Below, piece after piece: positions 2,608 to 44,818 of a stretch of 64,000 nt of DNA. Source of the DNA: Escarpia spicata (taxonomy: Eukaryota > Annelida > Polychaeta > Sabellida > Siboglinidae). A program made the position numbers and the translations under genes. Where the stretch lies: positions 61,513,541 through 61,577,540 of the forward strand of contig OZ023206.1 in assembly GCA_963995525.1 (NCBI GenBank), written 5' to 3'. The notes beneath the pieces are model-generated. The model was not told the DNA's origin, searched no databases, and saw nothing but the letters and a program-made list of their open reading frames with translations. Position 1 is the stretch's first letter. Each line of letters opens with the position of its first letter.

Positions 2608-4830
2608 TCACGGCGCAGTACAGAATGTTCGGGAAAACAGGTAAGTCTTAAGGTTTGATTTAAAATCAGTGTTTGTCATTGTTGTTGCAGTCAACTTTTG
2701 CGGCAGCAAGTTCCACAGTGTTGGGGCTGCCACGCAAAAGGATCTATCACCCCAGCGACGCGTTGCACGTGGTACACATAAATGATTGTGTTCACTGGAG
2801 CGCAACAATCGAGTTGGCTGACGTCTGTTCAAACATTTGGTGATATACGGTGGTGCACAGCCAGTCAGTGCTCGGTGCGTGAGTAGAAGTATCTTATACT
2901 CTACTCTAACTGCTATTGGCAGCCAGTGCAGCTTGATCAATAGAGGTGTGACATGACAGAACTTCCTGGCGCCGTCGACAAGGCGAGCCGCCCAGTTCTG
3001 TATTCTCTGCAACCGTTCTAGTTGTTTCACAGGCAGTCGGTGGAGTAATGCATTGCCAACGTCAAGTCTGCTGGTAACAAACGCATGTATGACTTGTTCT
3101 GTCGCTGCAGGTGTTAGATAACGTCTTATTCTTGCAATATTTCGGAGATGGAAAATTGCAGATTTACAGACAGCGGTCACGTGCGTCTCCATCTTCATCT
3201 CGGCATCGAACTGTACACCAAGATTCCGTACATTCTGAGTTACAGTGACCAAACAGTCTCCAATGCATAGTGTGCGCAGCTCAATTTTTCTTAGTTGTTG
3301 CGCAGAGCCGAACACGATGACTTCTGTCTTTGAGTCATTCAACTTTAAAAAGTTTGTCATCATCCACGTCCTGATCTCAGCTACACATTCTTCAATACGG
3401 ACGACAGCCGCAGCAATGTTCTCTTGGTGGGGTTTCACTGGAATGTAGATTTGAGTATCATCCGTGTAGAAATGATACATCAAATTGTACTTGCGAATAA
3501 TCTTAGCAACTGGTGCTACATAGATGGAGAACAGCTGAGGACCCAGCACGGAGCCTTGTGGTACCCCGTATACCAGAGGACGAGCAGGCGATGTAGCACC
3601 ATGAATGTGGACTGACTGGACTCTGTCTCTCAGGTATGACTTAAACCAGTCCAGTGCATCTTGGACCACTCCGATATCATGCGAGAGTCTATGCAACATC
3701 ATTTCATGGTCGACGGTGTCAAACGCAGCCGATAGATCCAGGAGAACCATGATGACAACATTCTGATTGTCCATTGCGTGCAGGATGTGATTCTGCACAC
3801 AGACAAGGGCCGTCTCAACGCTGTGATTCGGCTTGTACGCTGACTGATAGGGCTCACAGAGATTGTGCTCTGACATGTGAGCTGACAATCTCGCAGCAAC
3901 GACACGTTCTATTGTCTTCGATAGATAGGGTAGATTTGACACGGGTCGGTAGTTATTCAAGACAGTTTTGTCTAGATTCGGTTTCTTGAGTACTGGCCTG
4001 ATGTGTGCTTCCTTCAAGTGTGAAGGCATTACCCCCGTTCTCAGAGACATGTTAACAATTGTCATGAGCACAGGTACAACATCGTGCGCACAGTCTCTAA
4101 GAAGCCATGTCGGAATGGGGTCAAGTTCACAAGATTTCACTGGCGATGACTTCAACAACATTCCAATTTCAGCCTCAGTGGCTGGCTCAAATGCAGTCAG
4201 CAGACATGTCTGCGGTGCATCCTCAGCAGAGATATTTACAATGATGACATTCTGATTCAGTTCAGACCGAATTTTCGAAATCTTTTCTGAGAAGAAATCC
4301 GAGAACCGCATTGCCAGTGTGTCAGACGAGTCACCTGGCGGTAGTGGTGTGCCATTATCAGTGTGTAGGAGCTTGGCAACAATCTTGAACAGCTGCTTCT
4401 GGTCACCAGATGCATCAGTAATTTGATTCGTGTGGTATTCAAGTTTTGCACGGTGCACAGACGAAGAGACGAGCTGGCGCTGAAGGCAGTAGGCAAGCCT
4501 GTCAGACTCCAGTCCAGATTTTCTCCATGTTCTTTCCAGTTGTCGTCTAACACATTTTTGCGATCGTATGCCATCGTTATACCACGGCGTGTGTGGTCGT
4601 ACAATCACTGAGCGGTTCTTTAACGGTGCTTGCTTGTCAATGATAGCCGCAATGGTTTCATGGTACATGTCAACAGCATGGTTCATGTCACCAGACAGAT
4701 GATTTGACAGTAGCAACGAACGGATTTCATCACATATCGCAGCGGTATTGATCTGTCGATAAGACACTTGGTTGAAACGCCTTTTAGTTTTCTTCAGAAC
4801 AAAGTATCCTGTAATGAATACTGCACTAGC
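2608..4830 (-). pseudogene. L2-like non-LTR retrotransposon reverse transcriptase, 5'-truncated
   Basis: A 719-codon open frame with a GTG-type first codon at 4767. The same frame reads on to about 4840 through linker-like residues (KKTKRRFNQVSYRQIN). Reverse transcriptase blocks are in order: NNYRPVSNLPYLSKTIERV near residue 270, LLDLSAAFDTVDH near 345, [10 protein letters not shown] at 400, FYTDDTQ near 433, and the thumb and C-terminal VAAPTLWNLLPQKL near 695. The catalytic motif is YTDD instead of the usual YADD; both aspartates remain. The endonuclease domain is missing, as expected from 5' truncation on insertion. The frame is unusually intact for this window, which suggests a young insertion. 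It lies inside the foldback-like element on the minus strand. L2 versus a related clade (Daphne, Crack) cannot be settled by eye. Confidence 0.85.
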
Positions 4831-4840
4831 CTCTGGTGCT

Positions 4841-5640
4841 GTCTAATCGGGGTGTTTCACATTTGCCAGAAAGACTGTTCTCCATCGGGAGGGCGTAGCT
4901 TGTATGATCATAGGTGGTTAGCCAATTTATAATTGCAGTGAAAGGTTCTATATAGTTGCTAATCTTCTCAGTCGTGACGATGTTCAGCAAGATCTTCATA
5001 GTTTCCACGTATGTCAAACAGATCGTGAAATTTGGATTCCTCCGTGAGATATTGAATTGTCTCGTTCCTCAAAACATCTGACAGTTGGTCGACTGTGTTG
5101 CGAGTAGAGTTCTAATCTGCGACTGCCACCTCTCTTCTTCAACATCCTAGCTACATTTTGGGCAAGTCCTTTGACTTACACGTCACATTAATGACCAAAT
5201 GCATGTGTAGTAATAAATAATATGTACATTGTATCAACAGGAATATATACAAACAGGCTTAGAAATAATAATTGGGTATGTAAACACCTTTGATATACGC
5301 GATAAACATACTTGAGAAAACCACGTTTTTATGTTTGATTATCCCATATATTTATGAGAAAATTCAAATTTCAACACATGATAATACAGACAATAAATGT
5401 ACAATCCATAAAATAGTTGGTTTTATGCAACGGTGTGTACAAGAAGATGTGAATTAATTAATAACACTATTTTCACACAAATTTGAGTTTGTGACCCTCA
5501 AATAACCTTCAAAAGCGATGGTGACATCCACATATGCCTATTTTCTTATCCCTTGTGTGATGGTCTAGCATGAATTTCTGATATTAACAAAAAATGCAGT
5601 TAAAAATATAACATCACCTGTTGGCTAACCTACTATTTGT
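4841..5640. other. Unassigned core of the foldback-like element
   Basis: AT-rich sequence between the LINE and the right arm. Only short open frames occur, none with a recognisable domain. It may be the original unique core of the element. Confidence 0.4.
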
Positions 5641-10233: not shown

Positions 10234-13200
10234 ATGGGTCGATCCAACGAGGTGGCCACCAGTCAGGATAGTGTGGTGGAAGAGTATGTTTGTGAGGTCT
10301 GTAGTCAAACCTTTGCCTCAAAGCGAGGGCTGTCTCAGCACCAGAGGATCTTACCTGCAAAGTGGTACGATGGTATTTGTATAGGTGATGTCACTAGATC
10401 CGGCTGGGGATCGAAGAAATTATGTTCGTAGCTCGTGATGAGATCCGGCTGGTGAAGGCCGGCTGGGCAGTCTTTGGCGAGTCGGCCAAAATCGCAGTGA
10501 AGTTTGACCCTTTCCGGAGATCTCCGAATAGGTCGGCTATACCGAAAATTGAGGGACAGGCTGATGGATGGGGCTTCCCCAGTCGAAGACACGATCGACT
10601 ACGAGCACTCGTGGGAGTCGAGGTGGGACGTGTGGAAGGGGGCTTGTCCCCTGGCCCCTCCCTTGACACGATGATGACGCAATGGACTGATGGAAAAGGT
10701 AGCCGCGGCGGAGGATCGGCTGATGGCTACAGGCTCGAATAAAATCAACATCGAACTGGCAGGAGAATTTCGTGAACGCATCCTAGAAGCAATCAAAGGT
10801 ATGTAGAGGGCGCCGAGGTACAAAGCGTTGATTTCACGATCCCGGGTAGCGGGGTCTGCCGCGCCGCCGTGATCCCGTCTAGTCAGGCACCAAAGGAAGT
10901 AGAACGTGGGAAGTCATCCCCGATTAATTATGTGTGAGTTGTAACTCCGCCGAATTCACCCGAACACGACACTTGGAACATTGTTACACCGCCGGACGTG
11001 TCCAAAAACGCACCAGAGTTAGAAGACGACACGATTGTAAGTGGAACTTTTACACCCCACCAACCAGCCGCGTCCGTCTTGTACTTCCCGGTCACGAGAC
11101 GTGAGTCGGACGACAGGGGACGCCGGTGAAAAATCGGCGCCCTTTACTAACGAGTTTAATGTTTATAACGCCTGGTTGGATACACTCCGTGAGGAGTTTA
11201 AGTTAGTACAAGGGTACTTTGGCTAGACTCCACGGAGTACCTGGATTTCCGACCCGACCAGCTGAGTCTGGTGGAAAAGAGAACGATCAACACTGAGCAT
11301 CATCGATGGATTGAGTTGGAGTTACGAGCTTCGGACTCCAAGAAGGGCCGCGTCGGAGGGTAAATCGCCGGGGGCAGCAGGTAAGAAGGAAGCCGCTGGC
11401 CTGGCTGCAGCCATGGGACGAAGAAGGCGGAGGAGAACCGAGTACGCTCGGGTCCAGAAACTATACCTCACCAACCGAAGTGAATGTACCCACAAGTTCC
11501 TGAGTGGGGAGTGGCAGCACGAGGTGACCCCGAGCATCCCTCTGGAGGATCAAGTGGTCTGCTGGAGTCTGGTGTTTGGGAAGAGTCCCTAGTCGATGAG
11601 CGCGCTGCGGACCCTTAGGGCCAGGTGTTGTGAGACCTCGTGAGACATATTCGGCTGGAAGAGATCTATGCTACCCCGCGTAAGACCAAGGTTATGGCAG
11701 CAGATTTAGACAGAATCTCGCGAGAGGATGTGACAAAGGTGGACCCTCGAGCCCTCCTTGTGCACTTCAACCTGTGGTTGTATGCCGAACACCAGCCGGC
11801 CAAATTCAGCCCCAGCCGAACCGTCCTGATTCCGAAGGTTGCGGCTCCTTCAGGTCCGGGACAATACCGGCCTATTGCAGTGTCGTCATTTGTGTCGAAG
11901 ATGTTCCACCGGCTCCTGGAGGGGAGGCTGTCTGGGCTTCAGGAGTTCCAGTCCCGACAGAGAGCATTTATGAGTGAAGATGGCATCGCGGACAACATAT
12001 TCCTACATAGTTGCCTGCTAGGAACAGGTACGAGACGTTGGAGCCGCTGTCCTAGGTCTTCCTAAACGTGTCGAAGGCTGGGCCCTTCGTCAATTACCTT
12101 CGCAGCCTCGACGTCCTTGCATGTCGATGGCCAGTTCAGCAGATCCCTGTTACAAAAGCAGGGTGACTCGCTTTCACCTCTGCTGTTCATCTGCGTCATC
12201 GACTGGGCGTTGACGTCGCTGGATACGAAATTGTGCGTCGTGATTGGCGAGGATGGCCCTCGCCTCAATCACCTGGCTTTTGCTGACGATGTCGTCGTGA
12301 TTGCCCAGTCGCAGATTGGCATCCAGCATATTTGCCGACAGTTTGAGCGTGCGCTGGAACGCTGTGGTTTAACCCTTAACGCTGACAAGTCTAGGAAGTT
12401 GAGGATAGCAGCGAACGGGAAAGAAAAACAATAGTTATGTGACCCGAACCCGTTCCTGTCTCTGACGGGCGAGGAACTGCCCGCGGTGCAGATCTTCGCA
12501 GGATTACAAGTACTTACGAATCTCTATCAGAGACAGAGACCGGGATTCTACTGTCGAAGAACTATTGTCAAGAGGGTTAAACCAGCTCACAAGAGCGCCC
12601 CTCAAGCCTCAGCAGCGTATCTACATTGTGTGCAAACATTTGATAACTAATTTGCACCGCCGTTTGGTTCTGTCCCGTTTCAGCGGGGTCATTTTGAGAA
12701 AACGTCACAAGCTAGTCCGAAGGGGCGCGAGGGTCTGGCTAAAGCTACAACACAACTATACTAATGCCTTAGTTCCTTCATACTGACACGACAGACGGCG
12801 TATTGTGGGTTCCCTCTTTCCGCTTCCGCTAAACTTCCGCTTAACTTAAGGACCCAGCATTTGTTGGGTTGGTGGCTCGATCTAGATCGTATGCTAGAGA
12901 GGTGCAACAATGCAGCAGCCCACCGGCCAAGGCGGGCACCACAAGTGTGCACGACCGTGCATCTGTTAAAGCAGCGTTGGCTGAGTCGTTGTATGTGTCA
13001 ACAGAGAGCTACGGTCGGAAGGCCTCTTCGGCTGTCCCTTCTGCTCACAGCTGGGTGGCAGATGGGACGAAATTCATGTCTAGGACGAATTACATTTAAT
13101 GCACACAAATTCGTGGAGCGACAAGAGAGCGGCAAGAGGCCGGCCTCTGGCTTTGGAAAAGTGCGATGCATGCGGGCGGACCGAGACAATAGAACGTGTG

Positions 13201-23225: not shown

Positions 23226-23304
23226 CTAAAGTAGAACCCTCCGGGGGAACTCGGCCTTGAGTCGACGGTACCACGACGGCGGGGGTAACTGGAACCACAA
23301 CAGC
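23226..23304 (-). CDS. Exon 12: C-terminus and stop
   Basis: The acceptor CTCTCTTCCAG precedes 23304. It encodes LLWFQLPPPSWYRRLKAEF and then PRRVLL, and ends with TAG at 23228-23226. GTAAGTG follows the stop directly, a strong 5' splice site, so a 3' UTR intron may begin exactly after the stop codon. Confidence 0.7.
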
Positions 23305-24226
23305 CTGGAAGAGAGAGGATACGTGAACACGACACACGACACTCACACAGCTCTGTACGCACTGTCAACACACTAACACGTGCAAGGATTAAATACGTCA
23401 ACTTACTGTACATGTATCACCAGCTGTGGTCGCCGTGTCAAGATGTCCCTGAGTGTCGTCTCACTGTCGTCTGTTAAGTAGATGCTGCCAATGCTGTAAA
23501 GAATGAGACAAGAGTAAACACTTTCACTCACCCCGCTAAATACACAAACTAAACAATGTCTACACAGACATTAACCCACCTACAACAGCAATAAATCACC
23601 AGGGTGGGGTAAATGTGGTGGTATATAAATAAATATTTACTCTATTTTCAACATTTATTTGTAATCAACACAATTAACTGTGACATGTGACGTTGACACG
23701 ACGCGCTCGGCACATGTTTTGTTTTGGTCAAAAGTAAATGTTATTTGTGCAGCAAACTGTTTACATTATTGATGCATAATGTGGTATAAAAGAGGGTTTA
23801 TTTTACACAGTTTGATTAAAAAGGTTCAAATTACCGAATGTTATAGTAATTATATATAAGCTATGTACACAATACCTGTTTTATTTTAATTACTGCCAAA
23901 ATAAACAAAACAAGTCTAATAAATTAAAGTAAGACCATCTGGGAAGTGAAGTCATCATTACTACATTAGTGTGACGGGGCAAATGTGAAGTGATGTGGGG
24001 TGAATAAGGAAATGTGTCCTTACCTGAGCCTGGTCAAATGTGGACAGCCCCTGGTGAGGCCCTCCACGATGTGTCTGAGGCCGACGGACGTCAGTCGACA
24101 CCGGTGGAGGCTGTAACGTAAACAACGAGTTGTTTTATCTCACCAACAACACACATCTGTCGTCTCACAAACTCACTTCTCTCAACTCTCCCACGACGAC
24201 ATGTCTACATTAACACAACAACAACA

Positions 24227-24294
<68 letters not shown>

Positions 24295-25708
24295 ACTGTT
24301 GACACATGTTGTAATAAATAATTAAACTTACTTTATTTCACGTAGTGCTGTCAGTGACTCGACGGCTGTCCCCAGGGTCTGGGTCGCGTCGTCGTCACTA
24401 AATACGGCGTAGTTGCGGCTCAAGCTGTGGATGAAATATATTCGTTGATTAAACACCACAAACACACGACCCCGTCACTCGTTGTCGCAGATTAAACTAC
24501 ATAATACGTGTACAACAGACAATGAACTGCCGCATGCTGCGATGTCCACTCATGTCCACTACACTGACTGACCACTGACCAACAACAGAAGTGGACAACA
24601 CTTTCCTGCTCAAGTCTGTCACATTCCGTTAAATACCAACCGTTTAATGTTTTCTGCTCACGAATGTGTCGACCCCGTGTCTCATTATGCGGCGACAAAC
24701 ATCTGGTTTTGACGACACGTTTTGTTCAATTTGTTACATTTTAGTCGGCAGCGTCCGGAGCAATAACATACAATGTATTACAACGAGCGGTCAATGATCT
24801 GGAACATTCTAGAAACAACATTCATAATTAGCATCATAATAATAAACCTGTGAGACCGCTCTGACGATTTGGCATTTTAAATGGTAACAATAAAACTCAC
24901 ATATTTAAAAATAATTCCAGTACAAAATTATTAATACAAACCTTGATAACATAATATAACATATTATATTTTATATTGTTACCGAAAGTAGTAGCCTAAG
25001 TCTAAGTCTAAGACTAAGAATAAGTAGGCTTTTATTCGTTTCGTTGTCATGTGTTTGCTGTTGTTGGCTAAACCTTGTCAATTAAGTGTTGACAACTGTT
25101 CAGTTCATGTATCCAGGTATTTTATACATCAGAGTTAAGATGCCCGTCGTATGTATTTTTAAACGCGGTTTCCAAATTAACACAACGCCGTCAACGGCAT
25201 AATACTCAAAATACTAATGCTAATAGCTATGCTTATAACAATGAGATCGCCACTACGATAACAACGATGATTAGGCGCTGATTATAGTTTGTCTTACCTT
25301 TCCTCTTCGCACCCACAGGACCAGAAGTAGAACATAACGTATGATTGTTGCTGCTTCAACTTTGATTAACATGGTCATGGTATTGTTCCCGCGGGAAATA
25401 AACTATGCCAATAAAATGGTGTTTTTGTTGCTTTTTTTCACAGATATGTATAACAACTTACTGTTTTATACTTACCCTATTACATGATGTTAATCATAAA
25501 TTGTTTGGATTGCTGTTACCGATACAGATTTAATATAAAACTAATCATATATAACTCTGAAAAGAAAGCGGCTAGAAAGCGGCTATAATCAAGCAGACGA
25601 CATCTGATCTAACGCCAACGTGACAGTGCTACCACCTGCAGGCAGCTGTGGGACTAACGTAGTTCTATTGCATTCGCCGAATGTCGCTGGCATTACATAT
25701 AGTACAGA

Positions 25709-25747
<39 letters not shown>

Positions 25748-28700
25748 ATGGCTCTGATATAGTACAGAGTTTCTGCATAGGGACTGTAATAAACTATAGC
25801 TATATAATGACTTAGCCCTAGAACTGGCCTATTTACTCATCGCGTACATTAAAAGTAATGATTAAAAGTAATTATTAATTAGTTTGTTTTATATACCAAA
25901 GAATATTATGAAGCTGAATATGAATCCACACGAGAAACCACATGGATAGTATAATTATGATATAGATTTCACACAAATGACACGAAATTAAGAAAATTAA
26001 GAAAGGCAACTGTGTCATTAACACGCGTAAAAATATACATTAACTGTATCAAGGGTTCGAAAAATGTGCAAGCATTAGAAAACACAAAATAACACTAAAG
26101 TCAATACGACTTAAATGAATGTTTAATTTTTAGCAACAACAACAGTAATTTGTGTGTTTCTTTCTAAATTTCCTGTAAACAGCATGCCCGAAGAAATAAA
26201 ACATAACGTAACAACTCTAGCAAATGAAAGGTTAGTAAAAACATAAAAATTACAATTTACACAATGAAATGACAAAAAGCAACGTTCCAATACACATATT
26301 TTCAAAATAAATTAGCATTAGACACCGTTTTGCAACGCACTGCGTGAAACGTTTGACATATTAATATGATATGATCAGTATATATAACTAGGCTTCATAG
26401 TATGAGGTATGATTATGCTCTCATACCTATCAACACGTTGGTGTCGCGACGTGTGTTCGACTACTCAGCGAATCAAATTACGTTTTTGGATATTACAACC
26501 TGGCTGTGGAGGGTACGATAATGGGTACATCGGTCATCTCGGATGTGACTAAGTAGACTGTGGTGGGTGCGAGAGTGGGTACATCGGTCATCTCGGATGT
26601 GACTAAGTAGACTGTGGTGGGTTCGAGAGTGGGTACATTGGTCATCTCGGATGTGACTAAGTAGACTGTGGTGGGTGCGAGGGTAGGTACATCGGTCATC
26701 TCGGATGTGACTAAGTAGACTGTGGTGGGTGCGATAGTGGGTACATCGGTCATCTCGGATGTGACTAAGTAGACTGTGGTGGGTGCGAGAGTGGGTACAT
26801 CGGTCATCTCGGATGTGACTAAGTAGACTGTGGTGGGTGCGAGGGTGGGTACATCGGTCATCTCGGATGTGACTAAGTAGACTGTGGTGGGTGCGATAGT
26901 GGGTACATCGGTCATCTCGGATGTGACTAAGTAGACTGTGGTGGGTGCGAGGGTGGGTACATCGGTCATCTCAGATGTGACTAAGTAGACTGTGGTGGGT
27001 GCGATAGTGGGTACATCGGTCATCTCAGATGTGACTAAGTAGACTGTGGTGGGTGCGAGGGTGGGTACATCGGTCATCTTGGATGTGACTAAGTAGACTG
27101 TGGTGGGTGCGATAGTGGGTACATCGGTCATCTCGGATGTGACTAAGTAGACTGTGGTGGGTGCGAGGGTGGGTACATCGGTCATCTCAGATGTGACTAA
27201 GTAAACATATTTAACTATGAGTAAGAAACCAGATGAACACTCACTCTAGAATCTGGATATTGGATGGTGCACCTGATGATAGTACAAACACCAGGTCCGG
27301 GAGGTTTGTTTTTGTTAGCACCCGGCTCAAGCACAACCTTCCGTCTTCCACGATGTACTGGGCGATGTGGGCCCACAACTCCGGCTGTCCATACTCCTTG
27401 ATCTTTGCCATCACTCGGAGGGCCCGGCAGTGCTTGTCGTCGTTGCTCTCCCCGGCCACTGTAGACGTAACACACACGCAGCTTGAATGAACCTGTTTGA
27501 AGTTCCTGCTACACAACTACCATACACCTACCCTTGTCCAATATACATACATACATTTTTCATACATATATATATACATGTAATTCTTTCTCCACTCATT
27601 TTAAAATACCAAATATGTTAGCAAGCAGCCAGTTTAGTTCACGTCTAGTCCTACCCGACTTCAATGATTGAGTTGATCACACGTCCATTACAGAAGACAC
27701 TCTCCCTTTCGAATGCCATACAGAAACACCACGTAAAACTACTCCATTTAACGTAAGAGATAGAACTAAAACACTGAAACGACAGTATACCTATTTTTTA
27801 TATATTTGCATTCATCCGAAGCGAAGTCGCACTCCACTTAACAATTCAAACATGATATATACAATCCAAATATGATGTGAGCAGACAAATCCAACGCAAC
27901 CACAGGCATACTATGTCTACAATACAGGCGTCAATACACGATACAATTTGAAAACTCATTAAGTTTCTGACTTTACATCAGCCCAAATAAACGTATGCGA
28001 CTACTGCATAGTACTTGTTGTAAGCGAAAGTAGTACCAAGGTAGTGTACCTGGCTTTGCCGCAGTCGTAAGAGCATCGATCATTTCTTTGGTAGGAACTG
28101 AAACAGTCATTATTGTCGTCATATTTATGAACACCTCCACCGGAATGATATAATAATAGTAAATCATTACGCAAAACCAAGAACATGGACGTGAAGAGTC
28201 ATGATTAGAACAAAGACCCGCCGAAGATTCAGGGTGAGAATGCAATTTAAAACAAATAAGCAGTCATTTAATGAGAATTAGAGTGATTTTACGAAATATA
28301 GATATAAAGTAAAAAGTAAAGGTAAGTTCTTATATAGCAGGACTGTTCAAAGCGCATTACACTTTACTCCCTGGCAGACGTGTACAATCGAACACCATCT
28401 CGACTTCTCTGAGAAGCATTCAGCCACGTTGCAATTAATGCGCGAAGACTATTCTTACACAGATAACCACCACAATATACGGCCAGGTACTGATTCATAC
28501 AGCTGAGTGAACTGTAGTAATGTAGAGTAAACGAACATGCCCGAGGTTCGACATCGCAGCACAGGATTCGAACCCGCGTTCTCTCAGTCGAGAGTCCGGA
28601 GCTCTAACCGCTGTGCTACTGCACTCCACTTGATTTATCTATAAGTTCATATGATTCAATAGTAATGGGGAGCTGATTCCAAAATATGGGTGCACTTAAA

Positions 28701-31700
28701 GGCAAAGCTCGTTTCACAATCTTAAGCTTACTATTAGAAACACACAATACAATGTGCATTGGTGGCGTATACACAGGACCCGCATTCCCTATTCTAAATA
28801 TGGCGGCCAATAAGTAGCATTCGTAGAACACGTGGAAAAGTGTTTATTCAAAGGATGCTAATAAAGAATACATACTTAATCAAGTATTACATCACGCATT
28901 GCTAATATGTTCGGGAATGAGGACGTTACAGCTCCACATTCATTGACCAATGTTTTGTAAAAGGATGAAGAGCCACGCCGTGTAGGAGAACAACGCCCAC
29001 CTACCAAATATAATAACACGTACCTGGTTTCGTCACAGCAGCTTTCGGGACACGGGTCTTTTTACTAGGAAGAGCTGAAATATAGAGTGTCGGCGGTGAA
29101 AGTGTTGTCATTGCCACCACAGTCATGGCCCGCCCCGCAACTCTCTATAATGGCAGATCAACGACAACACCCCAAACGTAACACACAATACGGTCACACA
29201 GTAACAACTGCCTCGTGGCAGAACAACAACAATACCCCAAACGTAAAACAGAATACAGTCGCACAGTAACAACTGCCTCGTGGCAGATCAACAATAACAT
29301 CCCAAACGTAACACACAATACGATCACACATTAACAACTGCCTCGTGGCAGATCAACAACAACATCCCAGACGTAAGAAACAATACGATCACACAGTAGC
29401 AACTGCTTCGTGGTAGAACAACAACAACATCCCAAACGCAACACACAATACGGTCACACAGTAACAACTGCCTCGTGGCAGATCAACAACAACATCCCAA
29501 ACGTAATACACAATACGGTCACACAGTAACAACTGCCTCGTGGCAGTTCAACAACAACATCCCAATCGTAATACACAATACGGTCACACAGTAACAACTG
29601 CCTCGTGGCAGATCAGCAACAACATCCCAAACGTAATACACAATACGGTCGCACAGTAACAACTGCCTCGTGGCAGATCAACAACAATACCCCAAACGTA
29701 AAACAGAGTATGGTCGCACAGTAACAACTGCCTCGTGGCAGTTCAACGACAAAATCCAAAACGTAACACACTACGCTCACACAGTAACAACTGCCTCGTG
29801 GCAGAACAACAACAATACCCCAAACGTAAAACAGAATACAGTCGCACAGTAACAACTGCCTCGTGGCAGATCAACAATAACATCCCAAACGTAAAACACA
29901 ATACGATCACACGTTAACAACTGCCTCGTGGCAGATCAACAACAACATCCCAGACGCAACACACAATACGGTCGCACAGTAACAACTGCCTCGTGTCAGA
30001 TCAACGACAACATCCCAAACGTAACACACAATACGGTCACACAGTAACAACTGCCTCGTGGCAGATCAACGACAACATCCCAGATGTAACACACAATACT
30101 ATCACACAGTAACAGCTGCCTAAACTAATCAGAACATTTTGGCGAATTGGTTTGTTCATGCAACAACAACCATTTTATTGACCTATCGCGCGCGTGCGCG
30201 AGTGTGTGTGTGCGCATGTGTGTGTGTATGTGCTTGTGTGTGTGCGTGCGTGCGTCTGCGTGTGTGTGTGTGTGTGTATACAAACAAACACAACATACTA
30301 GTATCATGTATGTTTCATGATGTACAACTAATTGTGTGGTGCTTGGTACGTTTTCGTTAGTCAATTGTGGAAAAACATATTTTATATACGTTTTAGCATC
30401 GTCTCCACAAGTATTTTGCGTTACCTATTTTCTTCAAGTAGATTAAATTTAAGAAAAACTGTACCATCTAAACACAGCTAAATGATTTTAATATATTTAA
30501 TATTTAAAATAAAGGTGATATAATACCTGAAACGGAATCTCTTCCTCGGTTCCCTTGTCTATTGATTAATTCGTTGAGACGTCGGACCTCGTCTGGAAAG
30601 ATCACAAGGTATTCGTGTTTTCATAATTGTGCATTGACATCAAATTTGACTACTTAGAAAAAAACACAAAGATGCCCATTGTTTTCGCACGGCACGTATT
30701 GAACCGTTGTGTTATCTAAATACGAAACTTAAAGAAAAAGTGAAAAGAAGAAGGTCGGGGAAGTGGTGGAACCACAAAGTGAAACATGACACGTGACTAC
30801 TGCTGTTAACAACAGAGTGGTGGACGGTAGAAAGGTAAATACGAAACTTAAAGGGAAATGGAAAAGAAGAAGGTCGGGGAAGTGGTGGAACGACAAAGTG
30901 AAACATGACACGTGACTACTGCTGTTAACAACAGAGTGGTGGACGGTAGAAAGGTAAATACAAAACTTAAAGGGAAAGAGAAAAGAGGAAGGTCGGGGAA
31001 GTGGTGGAATGACAAAGTGAAACATGACACGTGACTACTGCTATTAACAACAGAGTGGTGGACGATAGAAAGGTAAAAACGGAAGAGTGTGACATTCAAG
31101 AGGACAGCGGCTGCTCAGAGTGGACTACGCATTTAAGCCAAGTAAGACAGTCAAGTAATTATAAATGTGAAGTTTTGTAATTAGTATATGTTATAAATCT
31201 ACGAACCACGAAAGGTGATATTTAAAACATGTAATTTACAGTCCGTCGATTGTAAGTTAATGGTTCGTGGTTGAGTGAACAAGTGAGCGAGTGAGTGAGT
31301 GAGTGACTCACCTTTTGTCTGTTGTAGTTGCGTCGTTGTGTTGTGTAAATCTCCCTTTGTTTGCTGTAAGTCTGTCGTTGTCTGATGTAACTGCGCCGTT
31401 GTTTGTTGTAGTTGCGCCGTTGTGTTGTGTAAATCTCCCTTTGTTTGCTGTAAGTCTGCCGTTGTCTTCTGATGCGCTCCTTTTGTCTCCTCAAGTTGCT
31501 CCTGTGTTTGTCTATGGTCAACCTTGACGCGTTGCATTTGTACTGAAACAAATCAAGCTTTGTTTACGATTCCTTCCTCTTTCCATAACATCTCAAGGTG
31601 TCATAAGTAAATCATACAAAACTGAGTTTCCTGTAGTTACTTTTACCAAACTTATATTTGTAATACTTGAATCGTGTCGTTGAATGTTCTAATTAATTGG

Positions 31701-34700
31701 AATTATGTTACGAGTGATATTAATTACAGAAACCCTAATTACTGGTCAATGCGATCGAGTATTACATTGGACAAATTGAAACAAGATGGACAACTGAATT
31801 ATGAAGACACGTTATGTCAACATTAAAATAAAAGGTTATTCTTCAAATATTTACCATTGAAATTTGTTTCACACGATCGTACTTTTTCCTTCGCCTTTTG
31901 CAGTCGTTCGTTGAGTAGGCGTAATTGCTCTAAAACAGTCAGTATATTTATACATACTTACGTACGTGCATATATGCATTCATGCATACGTGCATGCATG
32001 CATGCACGCACGCCCACACACACTCATACACACACAATCACATCAACAATACAAATTTATACTTAATATTATTTTATTGTATTGTTATCTATTCCTAGCA
32101 TAATGCCCAGTCCGTAGACCCCTGTCACTAGCTCGTGGTGTTTCACACTCCACCGATATGAAAAATGCCACAGTGCATGTAGTGTATTCAATTGTATCGT
32201 ATCTAAACATTGATTAATACAGAGACTCACACAAACAAGTGCTTCCCAATTTTAACTCTGTATTTCTACTCCTCGCTTCCGCCCAGAGATCAGGCCTTAA
32301 TTACATGAGGAGGGGAGCGGTCTTTAACAGTAGACACCACATCCCTCCCTTATTCAAACTGGAAACACATTTTCTCAACGTTCATATCTAACGTCCATTT
32401 GGTCAACAGTTCTTCTTCTGTAATTATTATGCTTACGTGATCTTGATAATGTTTACCAAATAAAGAGATACTTGTTATTATCATCATTGTCCATCATTTC
32501 GTTACGATCAATCTGTAAACACAATCAGTCTCAGAATTTCCACTTTCCACGCATTACTTTAAAATAAAGTCATTCAGGTACTGAGGCGGTCTTCTTTGAC
32601 GGGGTTGTCTACGATCACCGATGTTCGGGTTGTCATGATCTGCAGCCTCGAGTTCTCTTCTTTCACGGAGTTGTCTACGATCACCAATGTTCAGTTTGGC
32701 ATGATCGGTAGCCTCGGTTTGATCACCTTATCTCACCAATGACTCATTACTTGAAATAGAAATATAATCTGGAATATACTCCGACTCGGTGTCATTGTCT
32801 GTTTCATCATCTCGTGGAGTTATGTCTGTGGGAACATACTTCTTCACATGCGAACAGTTTCTCTTGTACTGCACACCATCACGTGATTCAATCACTACCT
32901 GGTTACCGTGTTTACGCGTAACTGTGTACGGCGCATGTTCGTATGCCGGGGTCAGTTTGTTCTGTTTCTTCTGTTGTAGTAGAACTGTGTCACCCGGTTT
33001 AATGATACTTTCCCGTGCATCTCTTCGGTCATCCGAATACTCTTTCCCTTTCATCTTCAATTTAGTGTCACAATCGCGTACACCCTCATATGTCATGTTG
33101 CTGTTGGATTCGAAGGTAGGTTCGTGCGAATTTTTCGCCGGAACAACAATTCAGCCGGACTCACACCTGTGGTTGTGTGAATCGTGCTTCTGTAAGCGAG
33201 AAGATGTGTATTGAGTTCTCTTCTCCAATCACGTCCTTCGACTTGTGCTGCTCTAATAGCCTTCAGTAGAGTTCTGTTGGCACGCTCTACTTCTCCATTA
33301 GCCTGTGGCCATAGCGGAGTCACGGAACGATGCTTGATTCCATTGGTATGAATAAATTCTTCAAACTCTGCTGACACTAGGTTTGGCCCATTGTCAGTCG
33401 TCACGGACATAGGTAATCCGTGCGTCGCGAACATCGTTTCAAGACTCCCGATCAGCTTGTCTGTCGTAGTAGACTTCAGTATCGCGACTTCCGGGTATCT
33501 GCTGTAGTAATCAGTCAGAACAAATATGTGTTCTCCATTTGGGAACGGTCCCATCAGAACAAGCGCCAAGTCTTGCCATGGACCATCTGGTAGTCTTGTA
33601 CGGTCCATAGGTTCTGGTTTTGACTGTGGTGTCACAACTTGACACGCATGACATGATCTTATGGCTCGTCGTGAAATAAGTTGTCAATGTTGTTATTGCG
33701 TGTTCGTAGTCATCGTCACCACCAACCTCTTCCATCGTGAAGAAAATCTCTTGGACTTCTGGTCATGCATGATGTAACAGCATCGCCCGCTTTTGTTTCA
33801 TATCTGTTACCCCTGTCGCTGTCACGTACAGTTCAAAACTGCGACGCCACTGCGTCCATTTTATTCCGAGTTGGGTCGGATCGTTTTTTGTATCAAACAT
33901 CGGAATACTTGCGATTTCCAGCACTACTGCCATTCTCGTTTCGTTTTAACGTTCAACTGAGTGTTCATTTGTAGTTTTACTCGTCGCCAATGTAGTGTAT
34001 TCAATTGTATCGTATCTAAACATTGATTAATACAGAGACTCACACAAACAAGTGCTTCCCAATTTTAACTCTGTATTTCTACTCCTCGCTTCCGCACAGG
34101 GATCAGGCCTTAATTACACGAGGAGGGGAGCGGTCTTTAACAGTAGACACCACACCTATGACTAGCTCGTGGTGTGTCACACTTCACTCCGTAGCAGACT
34201 AGTAATCTATGTTTTGAAACATTCTTGTATGGTAAATGTATTATGTTGTAATATTGTATGATGAGCGTTGAGGTTTTGTATTTATGACAATGCGTTTTGT
34301 GAAGCGTAGATGGAAATTGACTTCCCTTGGCGAACTACACATTTCAACTTGAAAGGCGCGATATGTGACTGTGGTCAAGCTTCGCTCTTCCTATACTACT
34401 TCGTCGTTGAATACGTCACTTCCGTCTGAGACGAATGCAGACTTCCGGTGGTGATTGTTGCGTTTACTCTTGAGCGGCGATACAATCGGCCGTGAATGCC
34501 CTGCTCACGGCTCGGTTGGTTGCTACACTCACCCCGCAACACTACTACCACAACGGCCTCACTTCTGTCGAAGACGATCGCCGAATCCGACGACGACCAG
34601 TGCGTGTCTTCCGCCTGTTTCCCACAAACTACTGAGGTGACTTCCTCCACGTGACTTGAATACTTACACCGTTCTACATGCACCGATACTGCAGCCGCCG

Positions 34701-35833
34701 TTTCAGTGTGGTGTCATCTCTCCGTGATTCACTATGACGATCGACGACCTTTCAGCACGCTACTTGACGCTATACGTGATTCCGCTGAGTTACTTCTATC
34801 GCATCGCCGTTGCACTGTGCCGATAAACAAGAATCCGATACTTGTTTTATCGTTCATTCAACGCTGTCACGACACAGGTTTACTGTCAACATGAGGGTGG
34901 CCGTTTTTAGATCGAATGCGTTGTACGGTCAACGCAACTGAGTGGGTGAATTGATCGTTTAATTGTTCTACTGGTTTACCTCTCTCCTATCTAACAAGTG
35001 GTAACGTCAGGTTCCCTACACCGTTAAACATCTCCTTCTTACTATATACTCTTCAGCAATAAACTGCGACAATTTAACAAGAACCCTCTCTGCTGCACAC
35101 TCACCGCACCGAACGAACTCAACGAGATCCGCCCGTTTGATGTTGACACACGCACCGCTGAGTTCCTCATACAGGGCGGTAGCATTGCTGACGTTCTTTC
35201 TCGAATCCAGCCATGTTTCAAGAATGGTGAATGAGTTGATCACCGCATCGTCGGAGTCACGCATGATGTCTCGGATTGAAGACGTTTTCATCTTGAGGAA
35301 TACTCCCAGTTGGAGCTGCTCAGTCGACGTTATGTTTTGCTGCGCAAGTTTCATGAGAAATGTGTCTTCTAACAGGGCTACAAAGACAAGCACAATATTT
35401 GAAATAATAAGTACTGCAATTATTGCTTGAAATCATAAAACAATGACAGGGACACAGTGAAGCTGCTTTCATACATATTTGCAACAAATGCAATGCGTTT
35501 AGATAAACTGTTATTGCCTAAGTCTGCTTAGCTCAATAACTTCAACATACCATACCTGCATAACGGGGAGAGATTAAGACTGGAATATATCTAAGAAAGA
35601 AAAAAAAATAATTATGCCACAACAAAGTGCTTTACATGCAAAAATCAAAGCGAAGATTCGAAACTATTATTTTGTTGTATCATATTTGTAACAAATGTTT
35701 GAAAAAACACAGGTGTCTTCTGTGAATGATATTTAGAAACCTGGCGTATATCAACATGGTAGTTACCTTTCGTTGGCAGCCCGTCACCAGAGCGAGCAGT
35801 GGCGCCACTTGTGGGTCTCCTTGATTGAGCCAT
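23226..35833 (-). CDS. Death domain - coiled coil - LRR protein, 12-exon gene (456 aa model)
   Basis: The model joins twelve exons: 35833-35767, 35377-35105, 31929-31855, 31542-31312, 30592-30527, 29074-29024, 28097-28050, 27458-27245, 24424-24332, 24110-24024, 23493-23407, 23304-23226. The coding total is 1371 bases, with no internal stop. All introns are GT-AG; introns 1-7 are phase 1 and 8-11 phase 2. Residues 24-113 look like a death domain (six-helix pattern, ILETWLDSRKN and RADLVEFV). Residues 114-215 form a heptad coiled coil (QLQQTTA-type repeats). Residues 216-271 are a linker rich in Lys, Arg and Pro. Residues 300-430 contain ribonuclease-inhibitor-type LRRs (IQILDLSRN, LREINLHRC). 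There is no signal peptide, NACHT or TIR domain. By family knowledge, death-domain plus LRR proteins act as cytosolic innate-immune receptors or adaptors; that role is inferred. The model assumes no exon was missed. Confidence 0.8.
23407..23493 (-). CDS. Exon 11: LRR
   Basis: 87 bases, phase 2-2, with acceptor CATTCTTTACAG and donor GTAAGTTG. It encodes IGSIYLTDDSETTLRDIL and then TRRPQLVIHV. Confidence 0.8.
24024..24110 (-). CDS. Exon 10: LRR
   Basis: 87 bases, phase 2-2, with acceptor GTTACAG and donor GTAAGG. It encodes LHRCRLTSVGLRHIVEGL and then TRGCPHLTRL, a 29-residue repeat. Confidence 0.8.
24228..24293. repeat. (ACT)n triplet microsatellite in intron 9
   Basis: An uninterrupted run of about 22 ACT units follows a short CAA run, within the intron between exons 9 and 10. 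Confidence 0.97.
24332..24424 (-). CDS. Exon 9: LRR
   Basis: 93 bases, phase 2-2, with acceptor TTTCATCCACAG and donor GTAAGTTT. It encodes LSRNYAVFSDDDATQTLG and then TAVESLTALREI. Confidence 0.8.
24425..26490. other. Intron 8, proximal part; no exon recognised
   Basis: AT-rich sequence of about 2 kb. One block at 25290-25375 has a donor-like end on the minus strand but fits no neighbouring exon phase. Confidence 0.4.
25690..25775. repeat. (TA)n run flanked by inverted and direct repeats
   Basis: About 36 bp of TA lie between AGAGCCAT and ATGGCTCT (inverted). The phrase ATAGTACAGAG occurs directly on both sides. It is a likely cruciform-forming site inside intron 8. Confidence 0.8.
26493..27205. 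repeat. 54-bp tandem repeat, about 13 copies, in intron 8
   Basis: Units read GGTACATCGGTCATCTCGGA and so on with small variants (GAGAGT, GATAGT, GAGGGT). Because 54 is a multiple of three and one minus-strand frame lacks stops, it shows a 230-codon open frame with an 18-residue period (MTDVPTLAPTTVYLVTSE). Its frame does not match the exon 8 donor, so I treat it as intronic. Confidence 0.95.
27245..27458 (-). CDS. Exon 8: pre-LRR helical region and first LRR
   Basis: 214 bases with acceptor TTACGTCTACAG and donor GTGAGTG, start phase 1 and end phase 2. It encodes AGESNDDKHCRALRVMAKIK ... ELWAHIAQYIV ... LTKTNLPDLVFVL ... NIQIL. Reading through the donor gives an immediate stop (TGA at 27243-27241). 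Splicing to exon 9 instead gives NIQIL-D-LSRN, the canonical LRR core, which is why I place the exon end at 27245. Confidence 0.8.
27459..28049. other. Intron 7 of the death domain-LRR gene
   Basis: No exon, array or transposon signature was recognised in this 591-bp intron. Confidence 0.45.
28050..28097 (-). CDS. Exon 7 (48-base microexon)
   Basis: Phase 1-1, with acceptor GACTGTTTCAG and donor GTACAC. It encodes PTKEMIDALTTAAKP. Like exon 6 it starts after a split codon and ends KP-G, so the two may be a duplicated cassette. Confidence 0.7.
28556..28623 (-). repeat. tRNA-like (SINE-type) sequence in intron 6
   Basis: On the minus strand it carries an A box (TAGCACAGCGGTTAGAGC at 28618-28601) and a B box (GGTTCGAATCC at 28574-28564) at tRNA spacing. 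The acceptor ends do not pair and the anticodon arm is poor, so it is a tRNA-derived remnant and not a working tRNA gene. Confidence 0.7.
28626..28831 (-). pseudogene. LINE C-terminal fragment in intron 6
   Basis: The minus-strand frame contains IVLCVSNSKLKIVKRALPLS followed by APIFWNQLPITI, the conserved terminal segment of many LINE reverse transcriptases (APxxWNxLP). It is only about 70 codons long and abuts the tRNA-like sequence on its 3' side. Confidence 0.6.
29024..29074 (-). CDS. Exon 6 (51-base microexon)
   Basis: Phase 1-1, with acceptor ATATTTCAG and donor GTACGT. It encodes LPSKKTRVPKAAVTKP, a basic proline-containing linker. Confidence 0.7.
29140..30120. repeat. 65-bp tandem repeat, about 15 copies, in intron 5
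   Basis: GTAACAACTGCCTCGTGGCA recurs at 29201, 29266, 29331 and onward at 65-bp steps, with moderate divergence between units. Confidence 0.95.
30187..30279. repeat. CG/TG alternating microsatellite in intron 5
   Basis: Imperfect GCGCGTGCGCG followed by TG-rich repeats; potential Z-DNA. Confidence 0.85.
30527..30592 (-). CDS. Exon 5 of the death domain-LRR gene
   Basis: 66 bases, phase 1-1, with acceptor GATCTTTCCAG and donor GTATTA. It encodes EVRRLNELINRQ and then a basic, flexible stretch. Confidence 0.7.
30719..31075. repeat. 119-bp tandem repeat, three copies, in intron 4
   Basis: Copies begin near CGAAACTTAAAG at 30723, 30842 and 30961 (a variant in the third). Each contains GAAGGTCGGGGAAGTGGTGGA and ACATGACACGTGACTACTGC. 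Confidence 0.93.
31312..31542 (-). CDS. Exon 4: heptad-repeat coiled coil
   Basis: 231 bases, phase 1-1, with acceptor TTTGTTTCAG and donor GTGAGT. It encodes repeating heptads (DLQQTKG, DLHNTTA, QLQQTTA, QLHQTTT). A 28-residue block (84 bp) is duplicated in tandem within the exon, so the coiled coil grew by in-frame repeat expansion. Confidence 0.8.
31855..31929 (-). CDS. Exon 3: start of coiled coil
   Basis: 75 bases, phase 1-1, with acceptor CTGTTTTAG and donor GTAAAT. It encodes QLRLLNERLQKAKEKV and then RSCETNFN. Its phase matches exons 2 and 4. Confidence 0.75.
32178..32341 (-). repeat. 3' LTR of the intron 2 element
   Basis: 164 bp, matching the other LTR except for a few substitutions (CCCAGAGATC versus CACAGGGATC). 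Confidence 0.9.
32728..33665 (-). pseudogene. Integrase of the intron 2 Ty3-like element
   Basis: The frame starts inside the integrase zinc-binding region (RRAIRSCHACQVVTPQ, so only the CC pair of HHCC remains). The catalytic core keeps all three acidic residues in LTDYYSRYPEV, TDNGPN and PQANGEVERANRT. The core frame stops at 33093-33095, and a shifted frame (MTYEGVRDCDTKLKMKGKEY) continues the C-terminal region to 32728, including IKPGDTVLLQQKKQNKLTP. One small indel therefore breaks the gene. Confidence 0.85.
33666..33933 (-). pseudogene. gag remnant of the intron 2 element
   Basis: Starts with an ATG at 33933 (MAVVLEIASIPMFD). It contains WTQWRRSFELYVTATGV and VQEIFFT, typical of Mag-like gag N-termini, then DDDYEHAITTLTTYF. 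A TGA stop interrupts it near 33763. It is fused out of frame to integrase near 33670. Confidence 0.7.
33991..34154 (-). repeat. 5' LTR of the intron 2 element
   Basis: 164 bp; TTGGCGACGAG lies immediately inside on the minus strand. Confidence 0.9.
34155..35104. other. Intron 2, distal part; no gene seen
   Basis: Several short open frames but no recognised domain. A GC-richer block at 34480-34640 has no coding match I know. Confidence 0.4.
35105..35377 (-). CDS. Exon 2: death domain
   Basis: The acceptor CTTGTCTTTGTAG precedes 35377 and the donor GTGAGTGT follows 35105. At 273 bases it is symmetric phase 1-1, so the whole domain is one exon module. The translation LLEDTFLMKLAQQN...LGVFLKMKTSSIRDI...ALYEELSGACVNIKRADLVEFV has death-fold helix spacing. 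An open frame continues past the donor to a stop at 35016, so read-through would give a short death-domain-only protein. Confidence 0.8.
35767..35833 (-). CDS. Exon 1 of the death domain-LRR gene
   Basis: The ATG at 35833-35831 has context GACATGG. The exon encodes 22 residues (MAQSRRPTSGATARSGDG...) and ends AAA G|GTAACT, phase 1. CTTACAG|ATTAGACATG just upstream could be a 3' splice site of a 5' UTR intron. Confidence 0.7.
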
Positions 35834-36200: not shown

Positions 36201-36205
36201 TGTAG

Positions 36206-37195
36206 AAAGAGGTGAGTGGACCTCGGCCCCTGGAAAGAAGTGACTGGACCTCGGCCCCTGGAAAGAGATGACTGGACCTCGGCCCCTGGAAAGAGGTGAC
36301 TGGAGTTCGGCCCCTGGAAAGAGATGACTGGACCTCGTCCCCTGGAAAGAGATGACTGGACCTCGACCCCCGGAAAGATATGACTGGACATCGGCCCCTG
36401 GAAAGAGGTGACTGGACCTCGGCCCCTGGAAAGAGGTGACTGGACCTCGGCCCCTGGAAAGAGATGAATGGATATCGGCCCCTGGAAACAGGTGACTGGA
36501 CCTCGGCCCCTAGAAAGAGGTGACTGGACCTCGGCCCCTAGAAAGAGATGACTGGACCTCGGCCCCTGGAAAGAGATGACTGGACCTCGGCCCCTGGAAA
36601 GAGATGACTGGACCTCGGCCCCCGGAAAGAGATGACTGGACCTCTGCCCCTGGAAAGATATGATTGAACCTCGGCCCCTGGAAAGAAGTGACTGGACCTC
36701 GGCCCCTGGAAAGAGATGACTGGACCTCGACCCCTGGAAAGAGGTGAGTGGACCTCGGCCCCTGGAAAGAGGTGACTGGAGTTCGGCCCCTGGAAAGAGA
36801 TGACTGGACCTCGTCCCCTGGAAAGAGATGACTGGACCTCGACCCCCGGAAAGATATGACTGGACATCGGCCCCTGGAAAGAGGTGACTGGACCTCGGCC
36901 CCTGGAAAGAGGTGACTGGACCTCGGCCCCTGGAAAGAGATGAATGGATATCGGCCCCTGGAAACAGGTGACTGGACCTCGGCCCCTAGAAAGAGGTGAC
37001 TGGACCTCGGCCCCTAGAAAGAGATGACTGGACCTCGGCCCCTGGAAAGAGATGACTGGACCTCGGCCCCTGGAAAGAGATGACTGGACCTCGGCCCCCG
37101 GAAAGAGATGACTGGACCTCTGCCCCTGGAAAGATATGATTGAACCTCGTCCCTTGGAAAGAGGTGACTGGACCTCGTCCCCTGGAAAGAGATAC
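36206..37195. repeat. 28-bp tandem array with a 476-bp higher-order repeat
   Basis: The unit CCTCGGCCCCTGGAAAGAGATGACTGGA recurs every 28 bp, about 35 copies. Marker variants such as GAGTTCGG at 36303 and 36779, and GAATGGATATCGG in both halves, repeat at 476 bp (17 units), so a block was duplicated. It lies about 0.4-1.4 kb upstream of the death domain-LRR start codon. The long minus-strand open frames are by-products. Confidence 0.95.
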
Positions 37196-42968: not shown

Positions 42969-43037
42969 GACAGAAAACATATGAAAGATGTAAGCAAAAA
43001 TCTTCAAAACTGCTATGAATAAAACAGTGCAAACAAG

Positions 43038-44818
43038 TTGTGGTGTATATTTCGGGATAGCATTGTCAAAGGTAATGGGTTGTATATACCATCTCGAATG
43101 GCTAGTCATAGGGACGGATACCCCTGGATTACACCAACAGTAAAGACACTTATGCAAAAAAGGGACAGAATGTACAAAAGTCACAAGCACACTCCAAAAT
43201 ACAAACATCTAAAACAAACTATACAGCAGCAACCGAGAACTGCCTACTGGAACTATGAAAATAAAATTGTCACCTCAACTGAAGATAGTCAACAAAAACT
43301 AGGTTATGCTAAGAGATTCTGGACTTACATGAAATACTGCTGTATAAACCACACAGGGATATCACCTCTTAAACAAAATGGAATCCTACACTCAAACCCT
43401 AAAGCCAAAGCGGAGATACTAAATCAACAGTTTCAATCAGTCTTTACAGATGACCCATCTCCCCAAGTAACCAAACTACTCAATCCAACACTACCAGAAA
43501 TGCCAGAAATAGACATTATAGAAGCTGGTGTACTAAAACTCCTACAAAATCTTAAACCTTATAAAGCACAAGGACCAGACAACATCAACCCAAGAATTCT
43601 AAAAGAATTGGCTGTTGAAATTGCGCCATCGCTAACTTTAATCTTTCAGAAGTCATATGCTACAGGAGAAGTCCCCATAGACTGGCTAAAAGCAAATGTC
43701 TCACCTATTATCATGAATGGTCAACAATACATAGCCTCAAGTTATAGGCCCATTTCCCTGACATGCGTAGCATCAAAACTAATGGAATATATCTTGGTTA
43801 GTAGTATAATGAAACATACACATTCACACAACATTTTTTATCATCTTCAACATGGCGTTCGCTCCCAAGTATCTTGCGAGACACAGCTTATTCAGTTCAT
43901 ACATGACTTAGTTACCCATATGCAGTCCGGCACGCAAACGGATGTCATAGTGATGGATTTCTCAAAAGAATTTGATAAGGTCAGCTATAGGAAACTGATT
44001 TACAAACTCTATCACTATGGCATCCAAGGCAAAACAAATTCATGGATTCGATCATTTTTAACAGACAGAACTTAAAGAGTCATAAAAGAGGGCGTGGCCT
44101 CCTCTGAGGTACCGGTAACATCAAGAGTACCACAAGGCTCTGTACTTGGCCCTTGTCTATTCCTCTTTTATATAAATGATAGCCATGGTCAAACACTAGA
44201 AACTGTTTCACAGGTAAATATCTTGGTATAACCATAACCTCAGATCTCCGGTGGAATGCCCACATAAATAACATTTCTCTAAAACCAAATATATCACGAG
44301 GCTTCCTCCGTAGAAATATATAAGTCCTGTCAATTCAAATAAAAACTCAGGCCTACTTCACATTTGTCAGACGCATCCTGGAGAACTGCTGTACTGTCTG
44401 GGATCCCTATACCCTTACACAAATAAACAAACTAAAAATGTTTCAACGCCGTACAGCCCGATATGTCTTATATCGCCACCACACCACTGTGTAACATACA
44501 TGCTCCAGACATTAGGATGGAGATCCCTATTAGACAGAAGAACCAATGCAAAACTATGTATGATGTACAAGATAGCAAATGGCCTAGTGGGTATACCAGC
44601 AAACCAATACCTTATTCCTGTAAATATAGTCACTAGAAAATTCCTTATCTTACCTTATCCCTCACTCCAGATGCAACTACCACTTGTATTCTTTTTTCCC
44701 CAGTACCATTCGACTTTGGAATTCCCTCCCTCAATATATTGTTAATCAGAACAGCCTGGATGCGTTTAAAAGCGACATCCAGACTTTGCACTACCCCATA
44801 CTTTAGACGTTAACTAGT
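43038..44818 (+). pseudogene. LINE reverse transcriptase lacking the catalytic YADD block
   Basis: The first 345 codons are open: YPWITPTVKTLMQKRDRMYK, KAQGPDNINPRILKEL, SYRPISLTCVASKLMEYIL, and MDFSKEFDKV where Ala-Phe is usual (here Glu-Phe). After a stop at 44073 the frame resumes with [18 protein letters not shown] and then jumps straight to [10 protein letters not shown] near 44185. That skips about 80 residues that normally contain the YADD active site. The thumb region follows (TITSDLRWNAHI, WDPYTLTQINKLKMFQRRTA, LCMMYKIANGLVGIPA). This copy cannot polymerise DNA. Confidence 0.85.

Follow-up and report, generated by a model that had tools for sequence, protein, structure and literature searches.

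A putative NACHT-less, NLR-like gene family with a divergent death domain, a coiled coil and changing leucine-rich repeats in Escarpia spicata

Introduction

NOD-like receptors (NLRs) of the NLRD type have the order Death-NACHT-leucine-rich repeat (LRR) and occur in sponge, sea urchin and amphioxus, and the tubeworm NLRC is reported to have the order CARD-NACHT-LRR (PMC11508797). Here, we analyse a gene on the minus strand of a 64-kb stretch of Escarpia spicata DNA (contig OZ023206.1, positions 61,513,541 to 61,577,540; hereafter, the window), together with its copies elsewhere in the genome. Like the NLRD-type receptors, its predicted product has an N-terminal death domain and C-terminal LRRs, here of the ribonuclease-inhibitor/NLRP type; unlike them, it has no NACHT that we could find, and the corresponding position is taken by a long heptad coiled coil and two linker exons. 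Between close copies of the gene, amino-acid change is concentrated in the LRR exons, while the death domain is conserved.

Sensing of the NLR inflammasome type is thought to require the NACHT ATPase for switching and oligomerisation. Another relevant protein is PIDD1 (LRDD), which is composed of N-terminal LRRs, a ZU5/UPA middle and a C-terminal death domain. The window protein resembles PIDD1 in combining a predicted death domain and LRRs within one protein, but in reverse order, with the death domain first and the LRRs last. ZU5 was absent from the Pfam matches listed for the window model, which does not have the PIDD1/LRDD order. In the accessible portions of the literature, we found no paper describing such a family or its setting, and the worm family is apparently undescribed.

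Results

Gene model in the window

Exons were located and spliced by script, and their positions are given in window coordinates. Twelve minus-strand exons spanning 35833..23226 splice to 1371 nucleotides (nt), corresponding to 456 codons and a TAG stop, with neither in-frame stops nor frameshifts. All 11 introns are GT-AG, seven of them in phase 1 and four in phase 2, which reproduces the structure proposed in the first-pass annotation of the window. Exon 1 (35767..35833, 67 nt, residues 1-22) begins with ATG, and exon 2 (35105..35377, 273 nt, residues 23-113) encodes the putative divergent death domain. The coiled coil begins in exon 3 (31855..31929, 75 nt), continues as a heptad repeat in exon 4 (31312..31542, 231 nt), which is also a coding tandem repeat of 21/42/84 bp, and ends in exon 5 (30527..30592, 66 nt). 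Exons 6 (29024..29074, 51 nt) and 7 (28050..28097, 48 nt) encode a linker, followed by a conserved pre-LRR segment in exon 8 (27245..27458, 214 nt, residues 271-341). Exons 9 (24332..24424, 93 nt), 10 (24024..24110, 87 nt) and 11 (23407..23493, 87 nt) each encode an LRR module, and exon 12 (23226..23304, 79 nt) provides the C-terminal end and the TAG stop.

Homologues in Lamellibrachia satsuma

A protein search with the 456-residue model, covering about 5.8 billion proteins, with scoring confined to the 8000 candidates that had most words in common with it, returned two matches. Both are hypothetical proteins of Lamellibrachia satsuma, LSAT2_011720 (P0001, 740 residues) and LSAT2_030111 (P0002, 277 residues), and both are gene predictions, not cDNAs. 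P0001 is collinear with exons 2-4, 8 and 9-12; P0002 is collinear with exons 2-5 and 8 and stops short of the LRRs. The two proteins thus share domain order and homologous segments with the window gene, and the presence of the same order in a related genome, which the first-pass annotation had suggested looking for, is borne out. Exon 2 is 71% identical to the death domain of P0002. The differences lie in a Myb/SANT-like insert in P0001, in the lack of LRRs in P0002 and in the linker: P0002 has nothing that clearly corresponds to exons 6 and 7, and just three residues separate its exon-5 segment from its exon-8 segment. In P0001, a stretch between the coiled coil and the exon-8 segment looks similar to exon 7 by eye.

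The Myb/SANT-like domain of P0001 (PF13837, E=8.2e-13) occupies residues 484-550, between the exon-8 segment and the LRRs, and may be a transposon-derived exon, a gene-model fusion or a true variant. Further searches added little: the LRR region (residues 271-456) retrieved one weak match (E=0.13) and the death-domain region of P0001 only itself, with a method that requires shared 5-residue words. P0002 had no match in a plasmid collection used as a null set, and NCBIfam gave nothing useful on either protein.

A large family of copies

The genome searched comprises 1.06 Gb in 1097 contigs, and the window lies on the one here called C2. Exon 2 retrieved at least 79 matches at E<=1 and at least 55 at E<=1e-3 (22 on C2, 24 on C3 and nine elsewhere), its own match included; these counts are lower bounds, and retained haplotypes may inflate them. 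Two of the 55 listed contain an in-frame stop. From these matches, the window gene is one of dozens of copies in a large, multigene worm family.

Eight copies were compared with the window gene exon by exon. Copy 2 (C2:61.77-61.785 Mb, 235 kb from the window gene) has all 12 exons, each with its splice dinucleotides, and encodes an intact protein of 428 residues, in which the exon 4 coiled coil is 84 nt shorter, in frame. The other seven have 11 (c5), eight (c4), seven (c8) or four (c3, c6, c7 and c9) exon types on one strand, and the absence of an exon from a copy does not prove its loss, since several of the sequences retrieved stop short of the end of the gene. Copies 2 and c4 contain both exon 6 and exon 7. 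Exon 9 of c5 is partial and frameshifted by a 4-nt deletion, copy L039 is without exon 10, and c7 has repeated LRR modules, with its death-domain and exon-8 matches about 1.3 kb apart. No match to exons 9-12 was found within the 7-kb stretches around the copies at C2:5.2, 6.0, 54.0 and 56.7 Mb.

The ends of the gene also recur. An acceptor-like TTACAG ends 7 nt 5' of the ATG in the window gene and is found in copies c2-c5, which suggests an intron in the 5' untranslated region upstream of exon 1; a donor-like GTAAGT lies directly 3' of the TAG stop in the window gene and in copy 2. Both would be further marks of a real gene. Since the L. satsuma proteins are collinear with the model, and copy 2 has 12 of 12 exons, splice dinucleotides and an open frame, the window locus is most probably a real protein-coding gene and not a chance assembly of exons.

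Other death-domain signals were observed elsewhere in the genome. Tandem pairs of Pfam Death matches, in frames of about 200-400 residues, were found at C8:6562084-6562614, C8:57287828-57288370 and C2:16989885-16990439, and probably represent tandem death-domain genes. Six weak partial death-domain matches (E=0.01-0.12) with 199-bp spacing at C1:55540885-55542020 are perhaps a tandem array, possibly a satellite derived from such an exon, or chance. A frame of 1785 residues beside a death-domain exon at C3:66870740 (stretch C3:66868000-66877500) was discarded as an artefact of an assembly gap of 5000 N; gaps that read as open frames are to be watched for in scans based on open reading frames (ORFs).

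A divergent death domain and LRRs without a recognised NACHT

The assignment of exon 2 as a divergent death domain relies on profile comparison and on a paralogue that bridges it to Pfam. An hhalign comparison of three exon-2 domains with eight Pfam-positive exons of the same genome scored 31.5 (probability 78.6), whereas none of 100 column shuffles exceeded 17.5 and the reversed alignment scored 8.8. The paralogue at C3:49105543, found by window exon 2 at E=9.5e-8, scores 29.3 bits against the Pfam Death profile (PF00531), above its gathering cut-off of 22.6 bits. A third line of support comes from Death matches under the cut-off in L. satsuma P0001 (16.1 bits) and in three further paralogues, although P0002 and six of the 10 paralogous exons have no Death match. 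By this profile comparison and paralogue bridge, the protein would have the N-terminal death-fold domain of an NLR.

At the other end, the best solved relatives of the LRR region are NLRP1 (5y3s, E=7.9e-8) and ribonuclease inhibitor (E=1.3e-6). The repeats are of the ribonuclease-inhibitor/NLRP type, the C-terminal LRR type of NLRs, with Pfam LRR matches lying under the cut-offs. No Pfam match was reported for exon 8, but its sequence is conserved in L. satsuma and in those copies in which it could be identified.

The NACHT ATPase of NLRs was not found: neither NACHT nor NB-ARC was among the best 25 of the 38 families listed for the spliced model, nor in the L. satsuma proteins. The only minus-strand ORFs of at least 110 residues inside the gene lie over exon 2, exon 4, a minisatellite and a long terminal repeat (LTR) element with an integrase; the introns were without a NACHT profile scan, so a NACHT split over small exons is possible. 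The families listed for the model or the L. satsuma proteins contain no TIR either, which sets the protein apart from Toll-like receptors (TLRs) and MyD88. A NACHT exon between exons 2 and 8, which the first-pass annotation had named as the observation that would overturn its architecture, was, therefore, not seen among these ORFs, and the three-residue join in P0002 and the short spacing in c7 agree. Homologues and paralogues alike support the order death domain, heptad coiled coil, linker and LRR, in which neither NACHT nor TIR was recognised.

Divergence between copies

Copy 2 and the window gene are 97.5-98.3% identical in the main blocks outside the minisatellites and 92.9-96.1% identical in the blocks that contain them, introns and the LTR element included. 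In exons 1-2, no amino acid differs (nonsynonymous, N=0/256.3; synonymous, S=2/79.7; for exon 2 alone, N=0/208 and S=2/62). In exons 9-12, N=27/249.3 and S=2/86.7, while the introns and flank of the same block differ at 9 of 1663 bases (about 0.5%); Fisher tests give 1e-17 for N versus intron and 0.008 for N>S. The approximately 20-fold contrast between N and intron is limited to the exon 9-12 block because intron divergence varies, and it becomes four- to five-fold against a background of 2-2.5%. The first 30 nt of each LRR exon, which by the LRR repeat plan encode the beta-strand and the following loop, the usual binding face, hold 23 of the 31 differences (23/120, versus 8/226 beyond), with the 30-nt cut picked after the data had been seen. 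Comparison with c4, whose surrounding blocks are 85-86% identical to the window, gave N=4.5/208 and S=3.5/62 in exon 2, and N=32.8/129 (0.25) and S=6.2/45 (0.14) in exons 9 and 10. Relative to the distant copies c6, c8 and c9, N is lower than S in exon 2.

It is quite possible, though in our judgement somewhat less than probable, that copy 2 is an uncollapsed second haplotype; the differences would then be between alleles of a polymorphic gene, which balancing selection might maintain, and the number of copies would be somewhat inflated. Where sampled, the flanks on both sides align collinearly between copy 2 and the window: identity is 98.5% along 2.8 kb on one side and falls outward on the other from 98.0% to 94.7% and 91.1%, and at least 24 kb separate the ends. 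Other copies also form near-identical pairs, such as L018/L019 (99.3%). Divergence of this size is ordinary for the heterozygosity of marine invertebrates. However, C2:61800000-61803000 has no match to the window, and the other copies, 38-77% identical in exon 2, are plainly separate loci.

A less likely explanation is ectopic gene conversion among paralogues, whose homology is largely confined to exons; near-identical copies would then owe their LRR differences to conversion instead of repeated selection for new residues. At 10 differences between the window and copy 2 in exons 9 and 10, c4 has the copy-2 base at six, the window base at two and neither at two, and the pair formed by c5 and L039 near C2:72 Mb shifts abruptly in intron divergence, as recombination would produce. 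Yet the differences are spread across four exons amid introns and flank that are 0.5% divergent, and with N exceeding S (27/249 versus 2/87), a neutral transfer would require donor sequences in which nonsynonymous sites had diversified beforehand. Both gene conversion and a retained haplotype still imply unusual LRR diversity.

Repeats and mobile elements

Intron 2 contains a decayed LTR retroelement (32127..34187, minus strand), which we read as Ty3/gypsy-like and which lies outside the gene product. Its LTR-like repeats (33990-34154 and 32177-32341) are 98.2% identical over 165 nt, and it has an integrase ORF at 33096-33683 (PF00665). The corresponding element of copy 2 (C2:61.78 Mb) carries about 2.5 kb more interior; therefore, the insertion seems older than the split between the copies, and the window element seems to have lost interior sequence. 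Minisatellites occupy parts of intron 5 (29151..30121, 15 copies of a 65-bp unit) and intron 8 (26504..27203, 13 copies of a 54-bp unit). Immediately upstream of the gene, a third minisatellite (36205-37193, 35 copies of a 28-bp unit) leaves several frames open, up to 337 residues, all repeat-derived. Reverse transcriptase ORFs (RVT_1) are located at 2611-4842 (minus strand), 43023-44072 (plus) and 12066-12431 (plus) of the window, one of them running for 744 residues without a stop.

Discussion

The reading that we favour, with reasonable but not strong confidence, is that of a family of NLR-like sensors that have no recognised NACHT and combine a conserved death domain with diversifying LRRs. 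A sensor is suggested by the combination of a signalling domain that is conserved, a spacer that would multimerise the protein and a recognition domain that is diversifying. In such a protein, the C-terminal ribonuclease-inhibitor-type LRRs would bind a ligand that varies and probably derives from microbes or symbionts, the heptad coiled coil would multimerise the protein in place of the NACHT ATPase, and the clustered N-terminal death domains would recruit death-domain partners, be it an adaptor, a kinase or a caspase. The cytosolic location, multimerisation, signalling, type of ligand and immune role in this scheme are our inferences. The protein is not an NLR by definition, because no NACHT was found, but it may work like one. 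The architecture in the first-pass annotation stands, and its proposal of a new kind of innate-immune sensor is plausible, and the diversification of the LRR exons at the amino-acid level lends it support.

Several observations weigh against a diversifying sensor of this kind. Window exon 2 receives no Death call from Pfam, so the PF00531 search of the 456-residue model that the first-pass annotation had proposed did not recover the domain, and of 10 paralogous exons, one exceeds the cut-off, three are sub-threshold and six have no match. A set of about three LRR modules is small for a ligand-binding protein. The introns diverge unevenly from copy 2, with 1-10 differences per approximately 400 bases around exons 1-7 (10 beside exon 5), and the exon-8 block, minisatellite included, differs at 74 of 697 positions. 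Against the more distant c5, N is lower than S in exon 10 (0.15 versus 0.29) and similar in exon 12 (0.30 and 0.28). The copies at C2:71.7-72.3 Mb, tried as an independent replicate and partly degenerate and recombinant (the frameshift in c5 and the absent exon of L039), show a weaker trend, with S exceeding N in exon 10 in two of three pairs. In this group, exon 9 has N=4/66 and S=0/24, with 14/483 in the upstream intron, exon 12 has N=4-8/~53 and S=0-1/~16, and the last 21 codons of exon 11 differ at zero or one position.

That the protein is a decoy or adaptor, with LRRs that bind host proteins and a death domain that modulates another pathway, seems to us decidedly unlikely. PIDD1 and MyD88, each in its own way, are models for such a role, and the few LRR modules, the lack of a recognised NACHT or TIR and the strongly conserved death domain would suit it, but a surface for host partners would be expected to be conserved, and the LRRs are the variable part. 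Lastly, it is extremely improbable that the model strings together open stretches by chance or represents a pseudogene in decay. The shortness of many exons, a region full of repeats with one retroelement, and damage in some members of the family would fit such a reading. However, every exon is found again in copy 2, many also occur in other copies and in a second species, and the window gene has an intact frame; chance chaining is rejected on this homology to L. satsuma proteins and paralogous copies.

A bolder form of the sensor proposal, which we put forward tentatively and as falling just short of probable, is an undescribed, lineage-specific, NACHT-less, NLR-like family in which the death domain is frozen, the coiled coil is variable in length and the LRRs are hypervariable, with LRR amino-acid change far above local intron divergence. 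It would be an animal counterpart of the fast-diversifying LRRs of resistance genes, possibly telling symbiont from pathogen. The link to symbiosis is speculative and is drawn from the probable host group; TLRs and NLRs are reported to have expanded in vestimentiferans (PMC8476170).

If a large family combining a death domain, a coiled coil and NLRP-like LRRs is confirmed, this architecture would work and diversify without an ATPase. Most of its members would escape surveys that recognise NLRs by their NACHT or death domains by the Pfam cut-off. Receptor diversification in an invertebrate could be tested directly on copies that are nearly identical but diverge in their LRR exons.

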